64,000 nucleotides of DNA from Aliidiomarina soli (GTDB lineage Bacteria > Pseudomonadota > Gammaproteobacteria > Enterobacterales > Alteromonadaceae): NCBI RefSeq assembly GCF_003986975.1, contig NZ_PIPO01000001.1, positions 372,001 through 436,000 on the forward strand. Direction: 5' to 3'. A program made the position numbers and the translations under genes. The notes beneath the pieces are model-generated. The model was not told the origin of the DNA. It did no database searches and was given only the letters and a program-made list of their open reading frames with translations. Positions within the stretch are counted from its first letter, which is position 1; each line of letters begins with the position of its first letter. Below are positions 16,197 through 18,285 of the stretch, piece after piece.

Positions 16197-17219
16197 ATGA
16201 AGTTAGCAACCTATAGAAATGGCAGTCGCGATGGTCAACTGGTCGTTGTCAGTAAAGATCTAAAACGGGCGGTGATGGTGCCGGAAATCGCACCGACGAT
16301 GCAGTACGCGCTGGATCATTGGGATGACGTTGAACAGAAGCTACGTGAAAGCTACATGGCGCTGAACAACGGCAAATTCAGTGACGACATCGCCTTTCAT
16401 CAGGACGAGTGTGAGTCACCGTTACCGCGTGCGTACCAATGGGCTGACGGCAGCGCGTATGTAAATCACGTGGAACTGGTACGTCGGGCACGTAATGCCG
16501 AAATGCCAGAAAGCTTCTGGGAAGACCCGTTAATGTACCAGGGCGGTTCTGACTCGTTTTTAGGCCCGCGTGATAATATCGAGATGCCATCGGACGAGTG
16601 GGGCATCGATTTTGAAGGCGAAATCGCAATTGTTACCGGTGACGTGCCAATGGCCGTTAAATCCGACAACGCCGAGAAGTACATTCGCTTGGTAATGCTG
16701 GTGAATGACGTCTCGCTGCGTGGCCTGATCCCGGGCGAACTGGCCAAAGGCTTTGGCTTCTTCCAGTCTAAGCCCTCGTCAGCGTTTTCACCGGTCGCGG
16801 TAACCCCGGATGAGTTAGCGGATGCATGGAAAGAGAGCAAACTGCACTTGCCACTGCGCTCAACCTACAACGGTGAGCTGTTTGGTGAACCGAACGCCGG
16901 CGTTGATATGACCTTTAACTTCTCGCGCCTGGTAGAACACGCCGCGAAAAGTCGCCCATTAGCGGCAGGTTCAATCATCGGTTCAGGCACTGTGTCCAAC
17001 AAACAGGGCACCGATCACGGCAGCGCTATTTCAGAAGGCGGTGTCGGCTACAGCTGCATTGCCGAAGTGCGCATGATTGAAACCATCCGCGATGGCAAAC
17101 CAGCTACTGGCTTCATGAAATACGGCGACACCATTCACATGGAAATGCTCGACGCCAGCGGCCAAAGCATCTTCGGCTCCATCGAACAAAAAGTCGTCCG
17201 CTACGACGGGCCTGAATAA
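16197..17219 (+). CDS. fahA: Fumarylacetoacetate hydrolase family protein
   Basis: Expected to cleave fumarylacetoacetate to fumarate and acetoacetate, the last step of tyrosine degradation. The 340-residue protein has the FAH catalytic core: the metal-site segment DFEGEIAIVTGDVPM, then DVSLRGLIPGELAKGFGFFQSKPSSAFSPVAVTPDE, and GSGTVSNKQGTDHGSA. Its wording is that of the short bacterial FAH found beside hmgA. It follows hmgA after 3 bases. The next gene, maiA, is separated by 427 bases carrying two large hairpin repeats. Confidence 0.92.
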   Translation: MKLATYRNGSRDGQLVVVSKDLKRAVMVPEIAPTMQYALDHWDDVEQKLRESYMALNNGKFSDDIAFHQDECESPLPRAYQWADGSAYVNHVELVRRARNAEMPESFWEDPLMYQGGSDSFLGPRDNIEMPSDEWGIDFEGEIAIVTGDVPMAVKSDNAEKYIRLVMLVNDVSLRGLIPGELAKGFGFFQSKPSSAFSPVAVTPDELADAWKESKLHLPLRSTYNGELFGEPNAGVDMTFNFSRLVEHAAKSRPLAAGSIIGSGTVSNKQGTDHGSAISEGGVGYSCIAEVRMIETIRDGKPATGFMKYGDTIHMEMLDASGQSIFGSIEQKVVRYDGPE

Positions 17220-17233
17220 CCGGGCATTGGGGG

Positions 17234-17381
17234 AGCATGCAGGGATTGGCTTCTGTGGCGGCTGGCATATTCCCTGGCGGGGACGCCGTGAATACATCCC
17301 TGTAGGCTTGACGACAGCATCCATGCTGCCGACACCCCGCCAGGGAAACATGCCATCCGCCACGCGCCAATCCTGCATGCT
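17234..17381 (+). repeat. Long imperfect hairpin with conserved 52-base core, copy 1
   Basis: Arms 17234-17282 and 17335-17381 pair over about 46 bases with a few mismatches (outer AGCATGCAGG / CCTGCATGCT, inner CCCTGGCGGGG / CCCCGCCAGGG). They enclose a 52-base core (17283-17334) with ACGCCGTGAATACATCCCTG, TAGGCT and a small hairpin CAGCAT-CC-ATGCTG. The core recurs in reverse orientation in copy 2 while the arms do not. Short reading frames across it are artefacts of the symmetry. The family is not one I can name. Confidence 0.92.
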
Positions 17382-17457
17382 GCAAGCATCGCGATCAGCC
17401 TTGAGAGCGCTTGCGTGGATTGTTGACAAGTTCGGGCAAGATAAACAGGACAGTGAC

Positions 17458-17588
17458 AGGCTGGCGTGTGGGAGACGGCAGGACTCGTTGTTGGGGCGTT
17501 GAGCGCATGGATGCGCGAGCCGAGCCTACAGGGATGTATTTACGGCGTCCCCAGCAACGAGTCTGCCGGCGCCCACGGAAGCCAGCCT
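17458..17588 (-). repeat. Long imperfect hairpin with conserved 52-base core, copy 2 (inverted)
   Basis: Arms 17458-17496 and 17549-17588 pair (outer AGGCTGGC / GCCAGCCT, inner ACTCGTTG-Y-TGGGG with its complement) around a mismatched internal loop. The 52-base core (17497-17548), read on the minus strand, shares ACGCCGTRAATACATCCCTG, TAGGCT and GCATCCATGC with copy 1 at identical positions. The arms are unrelated to those of copy 1. Between the copies lie 76 bases without recognised features; maiA begins 59 bases downstream. Confidence 0.92.
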
Positions 17589-17646: not shown

Positions 17647-18285
17647 ATGGAACTTTATGGGTATTGGCGGTCTTCGGCTAGTTATCGGGTGCGGATTGCG
17701 TTGCATCTGAAGCAGTTGGCGTTTGACTACAAGCCGGTGCATCTGGTCAAAGATGGCGGCGAGCAGAAAAGTGCGGAGTATGCGAAGCTGAATCCGGCTA
17801 AGCTGGTGCCGACGCTGGTTGATGGTGAACTGGAGCTGAATCAGTCGCTGGCGATTATTGAGTATCTGGACAGCAAAGCTGGGCCGTTGCTGGTGCCGGA
17901 GGATCCGAAAGAGGCGGCGATTGTGCGCATGCTGGCGTTGGATATGGCGTGTGATTTGCAGCCGATTACCAATTTACGGGTGCTGCAGTATGTCAGTGGC
18001 ACGCTGGATGCGGGTGATGAGGGCCGTCAGGCCTGGATCGAGCATTGGGTGTCGTCGGCGTTTGCGGCATTTGAAAAGCGCCTGGAGAAACATGCGGGTG
18101 CATGTTGCGTGGGTGACGAAGTGAGCCTGGCTGATGTGTGCCTGGTGCCGCAGGTGTACAATGCATTGCGCTTTAAGATTGATTTGTCGCCGTATCCACG
18201 GCTGTTGCAGGTTTATGAAAACTTGCAGCAGATTGACGCATTTCAAAAAGCGCAGCCTGATCAACAGCCCGACGCTGTGCTTTAA
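17647..18285 (+). CDS. maiA: Maleylacetoacetate isomerase (zeta-class GST)
   Basis: Glutathione-dependent cis-trans isomerase turning maleylacetoacetate into fumarylacetoacetate. The 212-residue protein opens MELYGYWRSSASYRVRIAL, matching the zeta-class SSxSxRVRIAL active-site signature, followed by KLNPAKLVPTLVDG and the helical GST C-terminal domain. An excellent ribosome site (AGGAGG, 7 bases from the ATG) suggests good independent translation even though the hairpin elements separate it from fahA. It completes the tyrosine pathway and is followed by a terminator. Confidence 0.95.
   Translation: MELYGYWRSSASYRVRIALHLKQLAFDYKPVHLVKDGGEQKSAEYAKLNPAKLVPTLVDGELELNQSLAIIEYLDSKAGPLLVPEDPKEAAIVRMLALDMACDLQPITNLRVLQYVSGTLDAGDEGRQAWIEHWVSSAFAAFEKRLEKHAGACCVGDEVSLADVCLVPQVYNALRFKIDLSPYPRLLQVYENLQQIDAFQKAQPDQQPDAVL

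Follow-up and report, generated by a model that had tools for sequence, protein, structure and literature searches.

How do the two arms of a long hairpin stay paired while their sequence changes and the core between them does not? The question is raised by two hairpins in the window analysed here, a stretch of 64,000 nucleotides from Aliidiomarina soli (NZ_PIPO01000001.1, positions 372,001 to 436,000). The first-pass annotation had placed them in opposite orientation at 17234-17381 and 17458-17588, with a shared core and unrelated stems, and it proposed either selection on structure or a copying mechanism that makes inverted arms.

The hairpin pair of the window

Both hairpins were confirmed at these positions and in this orientation. 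Copy 1 has a predicted fold of −95.2 kcal/mol (z −8.6) and copy 2 of −75.8 kcal/mol (z −8.1), and in neither case was any of 200 shuffled sequences as good. When ungapped pairing was counted outward from a loop of 50-57 bases, copies 1 and 2 scored 12 and 11; the highest score among 41,801 other window positions was 9. Bulges and mismatches are present in both stems. The core lies in the register first described, and its length is 54 bases rather than the 52 given. The arms were thought to be wholly different between the copies; the two 5′ arms in fact share 25 identities over 35 ungapped bases, a score of 15 that none of 300 shuffles reached (shuffled mean 7.3), and as read from this alignment they are diverged relatives. 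The features are as follows.

16197-17219, + strand: upstream flanking gene, fumarylacetoacetate hydrolase family (PF01557, 134.5 bits; PF18288, 103.4 bits)
17234-17281, + strand: copy 1, 5′ arm, predicted to pair with 17336-17381
17282-17335, + strand: copy 1, core of 54 bases (GACGCC...ACAC; core match at G000:C1:389282 and sequence)
17336-17381, + strand: copy 1, 3′ arm (predicted fold)
17458-17495, − strand: copy 2, 3′ arm, the element lying on the − strand (predicted fold)
17496-17549, − strand: copy 2, core of 54 bases (core match at G000:C1:389521-389549, − strand)
17550-17588, − strand: copy 2, 5′ arm (predicted fold)
17647-18285, + strand: downstream flanking gene, maleylacetoacetate isomerase, maiA (TIGR01262, 279.2 bits; cut-off 171)

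A maiA match was found in 15 genomes of the window genus, the window's own genome (G000) counted and G001 left out of the survey of this junction. In 11 of them the upstream gene and maiA abut or overlap without hairpins. The pair stands between the two genes in G000 and G010, and G011 has copy 2 at a contig edge. Because 11 relatives have the abutting genes without the pair, we infer that it was inserted into a tight operon in the branch of G000.

G000 and G010 are 96% identical in maiA. Between them the window pair and the pair at L040 are collinear, whole segments are inverted for the pairs at L037 and L038, and at L039 the two genomes keep different parts. Read by eye, the outer arms at L040 differ at two positions in both arms, both by transversion, and at two positions in one arm. 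The aspS-yebC junction (L041) was considered as an empty site in G010 and rejected, since G010 has lost the pair through a deletion bounded by 8-base repeats. As this G010 counterpart shows, another route of decay for convergent hairpin pairs is deletion bounded by short direct repeats that lie in the two cores.

Identity and distribution of the core

A literature search with core strings led to the RU-2/YPAL element of Yersinia, of which a 168-base sequence printed in an excerpt of PMC2759123 has the same core on the reverse strand. By its core, the window pair is very probably of YPAL type, and it shares with YPAL the character of a multicopy, intergenic, long palindrome. The Rfam model Ysr224 (RF02770) matched each of the six Y. 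similis loci on which it was tried, with 126-134 bits. Copy 2 of the window scored 27.4 bits against a gathering score of 70, and the pair was not filed as Ysr224. The Yersinia repeat, the Rfam small RNA family and the repeats of many other genera are linked by the common core. Matches of the window to Rfam miRNA families (best E 7e-8) were far below the gathering scores and were read as chance matches of long hairpins.

The window's genome carries 11 cores at ≤2 mismatches; ten of them form five convergent pairs and the eleventh stands alone. The core occurs in 24 of 58 genomes of window relatives (G000 counted). A species-genome scan gave at least 116 core stretches, with Stenotrophomonas, Marinobacter, Pseudidiomarina, Methylomonas, Thioalkalivibrio and Yersinia among the matches listed. 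In eight genomes already known to have the core, counts at ≤2 mismatches were 639 in Methylotuvimicrobium buryatense, 165 in Methylomicrobium sp. wino1, 83 and 96 in two S. maltophilia, 69 in Y. similis, 28 in Marinobacter flavimaris, 14 in a Thioalkalivibrio draft and 8 in Pseudidiomarina terrestris. In an even sample of gammaproteobacteria the core was found at ≤1 mismatch in 17 of 143 genomes. Two viral contigs match it as well, and a BLAST search with 55-base cores, insensitive at such query length, gave no match in collections of E. coli, plasmid and phage sequences. The first-pass annotation had named a lack of other copies in the genome, or identical arms in all of them, as what would tell against its idea. 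Neither is the case, yet some repeat families of another genus, Methylotuvimicrobium, do share arms. Its suggestion of similar cores in other marine gammaproteobacteria was right, the element itself being the one described in Yersinia as YPAL/RU-2.

Two arrangements were seen besides. Tandem arrays of six cores in a single orientation lie at G015:C1:201159-202056 and G062:C6:312473-313184, with periods of about 174 and 137 bases. In wino1 (G061), several cores carry an extra palindromic insert with ends AACCCAGCACC/GGTGCTGGGT at the same core position (for example in the counterpart of M. buryatense A:133141), and pattern counts in this genome are low because the insert interrupts the cores.

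Orthologous sites and turned cores around Thioalkalivibrio

In the genus around Thioalkalivibrio, cores at ≤2 mismatches were found in 13 of 30 genomes. The 27 copies read at first comprise 24 with stems of 17-31 bp and 3 with stems of 3-11 bp; their arms look unrelated between different sites, orthologous copies excepted, and the core is almost invariant. The 92 copies gathered have a median stem of 28 bp, with 12 below 15 bp. Related species carry copies at the same intergenic sites, and the 92 copies yield 98 orthologous pairs that match in both flanks, 60 in the same orientation and 38 in the opposite one; these pairs have lineages in common, and they come mostly from draft genomes, in which palindromes assemble badly. 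The core was turned in 3/23 pairs at ≥90% flank identity, 6/18 at 85-90%, 19/42 at 80-85% and 10/15 below that. The inverted share of orthologous pairs therefore grows with divergence. Of the inverted pairs at 93% flank identity, two keep their arms and the third does not (arm identity 0.50). Inversion of the spacer, one mark of a template-switch hairpin, is thus found here as a turned core or a turned whole hairpin, which look alike because the arms are palindromes.

Site occupancy varies. One site has the core in 7 of 10 loci, within the stretch read. A second site lacks the element in G082 and G088, and in G089 most of the core there is deleted. Site S2 in G082 was considered as a never-filled site and rejected, because part of the 5′ arm remains, and it was read as a loss.

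Paired change of the arms

The arm covariation suggested as a check by the first-pass annotation was measured in 18 copies from this group, chosen for complete flanks and good stems. Of 774 cells, 96.9% are paired, a value reached in 0/500 shuffles. In the same copies, 25 of 28 arm-helix pairs change on both sides, and slid structures fall far below. Paired change was then counted in those orthologous pairs that have two good stems (60 of the 98). In 21 pairs with arm identity ≥0.75, there were 31 double changes that keep Watson-Crick pairing, compared with 2.0 expected for independent arms, and 30 single changes. In 20 disjoint pairs with arm identity ≥0.55, there were 89 doubles compared with 12.6 expected, and 37 singles; the doubles comprise 46 transitions and 43 transversions and the singles 19 and 18, the same mix. 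Because doubles include transversions, a route through G.U is disfavoured. Mean arm identity is 0.68 between orthologous copies and 0.47 between non-orthologous ones. As 16% of the non-orthologous control pairs reach 0.55, pairs of weak similarity may have arisen by separate insertions. Taken together, at orthologous sites around Thioalkalivibrio the arms change in pairs while the core changes little.

The ratio of doubles to singles was also followed along falling flank identity, with degraded stems counted in. It was 7:100, 16:55, 24:24 and 9:3 for pairs in the same orientation with arm identity ≥0.6, and 2:4, 22:21, 42:26 and 13:10 for inverted pairs. Arm mismatches thus seem to arise first and to be resolved later in both arms. 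Homogenised arms, the other mark of a template-switch hairpin, were found around Thioalkalivibrio and, in the window genus, at a few positions only.

A miniature element in Methylotuvimicrobium buryatense

In 800 kb of M. buryatense there are 120 copies, which by eye make up at least five families. These differ in their ends and have the core in common, and there are hybrids as well. Family F1 comprises 63 copies with shared arms. Compared with wino1, a TA duplication is seen at at least two clean sites (sites 59 and 35), where arms and core were inserted together. F1 copies decay evenly, with 166 changes to G.T and 151 to A.C. F1 is therefore an ordinary TA-inserting miniature element, and it is the only set of copies for which own terminal repeats together with a target duplication were found. 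The statement of the first-pass annotation that this is not how an insertion sequence evolves holds only in part, since it does not apply to F1. In four hybrids (A:97258, A:175974, B:117140 and B:163016) the left end belongs to one family and the right end to another, with the joint at the core.

Core sequence and strand bias

Of the 196 copies in the first collection, 140 allowed placement of the 3′ arm, and a 54-base core was seen in 107 of the 140. In 90 distinct 54-base cores, a second loop near CATCCNTG, with N free, lies in columns 29-54, which were outside the search pattern, and stem columns covary. In 77 cores around Thioalkalivibrio, ten columns have less than 93% identity (9, 10, 12, 13, 15, 19, 22, 35, 42 and 46), of which 15, 19 and 42 are loop positions. 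Orthologous cores differ on average by 3.1 of 53 positions and those at different loci by 3.6, the core count of 18 for L416/L417 being the product of an indel. Because orthologous cores are hardly closer than non-orthologous ones, it is either constraint or exchange between copies that keeps the core.

On the opposite strand each of the two loops reads CANGGAYG, and some 20 bases separate them. The CsrA consensus is RUACARGGAUGU with ANGGAN loops, according to an excerpt of PMC7652899. It is conceivable, though distinctly unlikely, that the core is a dispersed putative decoy for CsrA/RsmA, its GGA strand displaying the two loops. The freest positions in the core loops are among those that CsrA leaves free, and among arm mismatches there is an excess of the form able to pair as G.U on the GGA strand. 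Core orientation to genes does not favour transcription of the GGA strand. When this strand was folded alone with short arms, copy 2 showed both loops and copy 1 a single one, which counts against a simple CsrA reading. Among the papers searched, none has CsrA and YPAL together as whole words. Were the core such a decoy, template switching would preserve the hairpin that displays it even as the arm sequence drifts. Many M. buryatense copies (L301-L340) have their second small hairpin expanded by extra hairpins, with AGGA/ANGGAT loops on the opposite strand.

The mismatch bias was measured in 336 copies, in 275 of which the arms could be placed, giving 82 arm-similarity clusters, 81 with enough pairs. 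On the core strand, A.C mismatches number 112 and G.T 31 over the 81 clusters; 47 clusters lean to A.C and 10 the opposite way. The same lean is present around Thioalkalivibrio (52 to 17), where by orientation class it is 4:2, 9:3, 13:6 and 9:1, with 17:5 unassigned, all in small classes. It is absent among the private mutations of M. buryatense F1. From this lean, it is apparently the folding of the GGA-loop strand that matters, and the lean does not track transcription. The strand bias is the best clue to a strand-specific factor.

What keeps the arms paired

On these sequence comparisons, the arms are probably kept paired by template switching. During replication, a polymerase copying one arm of the folded repeat may take the other arm as its template. 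Such a switch would copy one arm onto the other, so that complementarity would be kept while the arm sequence drifts, and a switch running across the core would leave the core inverted. New copies would enter their sites by transposition, which in M. buryatense F1 takes the form of a miniature element going in at TA. A portion of PMC8604942 attributes both arm homogenisation and spacer inversion to template switching between inverted repeats. Against this stand the 7 doubles to 100 singles among same-orientation pairs at ≥90% flank identity, which are mostly uncorrected, and the F1 copies, which are without sign of correction; nor does template switching account for the strand bias of the arm mismatches.

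The main rival is compensatory selection, in which each copy would be a functional structured RNA or DNA hairpin whose arm mutations are compensated one after the other. Arms that stay paired over long divergence, the constrained core and mismatches leaning 112 to 31 towards the form that pairs as G.U on one strand over the 81 arm clusters all speak for it. About half of the doubles, however, are transversions, which are barred from passage through G.U, and turning of the core takes place at the site itself. Nor do the copies favour one orientation to genes, M. buryatense showing no bias over all families (30 vs 34 co-directional) and the group around Thioalkalivibrio 12 to 12, although a mixed early set leaned one way (48 to 28 co-directional), by simple ORF calls, in which spurious ORFs can run through GC-rich hairpins. 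This balance in the two well-sampled groups also weakens a function of the sense strand at mRNA ends, which was set aside. We regard compensatory selection as rather unlikely. Of the two options in the first-pass annotation, copying is the better supported, by the paired changes that include transversions and by the turning of the core, and selection on structure is less so.

Two further explanations concern insertion. It is very doubtful that the repeat is an ordinary miniature transposable element throughout, its arms being terminal inverted repeats and its shared sites repeated independent insertions with different arms. F1 behaves in this way, by whole-unit insertion with TA duplication (sites 59 and 35), random orientation and neutral decay; several M. 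buryatense families have their own ends, and YPAL target duplications of 3-26 bp are reported in part of PMC2229807. Around Thioalkalivibrio, however, arms differ between sites and are homologous at the same site (0.68 vs 0.47), and orientation decays gradually. At the window-genus loci read, no clean empty site that could show a target duplication was found, and F1 gave TA only. Still more improbable is insertion of the core into the centre of pre-existing palindromes, such as terminators or other repeats, the arms then belonging to the target. It would fit the report, again in part of PMC2229807, that YPAL targets span or adjoin dyad symmetry, and the M. buryatense families F2 and F5, read by eye, have inner arms in common and not outer ones; yet the two clean F1 empty sites are non-palindromic, as is the fahA-maiA junction in the relatives read. 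Template switching remains the preferred reading.

A linked REP-type transposase, which the first-pass annotation had advised looking for, did not turn up in a flanking position. Of the 43 loci that contain a PF01797 match or surround one, a single locus shows a core; it has 3 mismatches and lies about 1 kb away, on one side. The PF01797 domain occurs in 20 of 24 core-bearing genomes and in 19 of 34 that lack cores, so that its mere presence is little informative. The single IS200-like (PF01797) transposase gene of G000, of 291 aa (G000:C8:147967-148842; L222:1967-2842), is unflanked by cores.

Comparison with known systems

The YPAL/RU-2 element has the same core with both small hairpins and is likewise a multicopy, intergenic, long palindrome, of which Rfam Ysr224 is a part. 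The window copies differ from it in arms and length, and arm turnover and core inversion do not appear in the portions of PMC2759123 and PMC2229807 read. REP/REPIN and TIR repeats, which are moved by RAYT, are also short extragenic palindromes and often stand in inverted pairs. According to part of PMC3733652, a REP is defined as a palindrome of 20-40 bp, one end of which carries a GTAG or CGTC tag, and self-complementary TIR repeats are reported in S. maltophilia. In contrast to these, the IS200-like genes found here are unflanked by the core. M. buryatense F1 resembles a MITE in its defined ends, TA duplication and neutral decay, whereas the copies around Thioalkalivibrio have only the core in common and their arms are site-specific.

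How pairing outlasts sequence change is an old question, and this repeat offers a way to study the persistence of long hairpins in genomes. It also warns that covariation in long bacterial stems need not imply selection on RNA. Template-switch hairpins, as in rRNA stems and quasipalindromes, show the same paired stem changes and loop inversion. Template switching has been proposed as an answer to the old question. In rRNA data, stem compensation together with loop inversion would be the strongest support and yet was extremely rare, as stated in a portion of PMC8794818. Here, in contrast, both marks are frequent in one repeat, which gives many orthologous cases of joint arm change and core turning, both readable against divergence.
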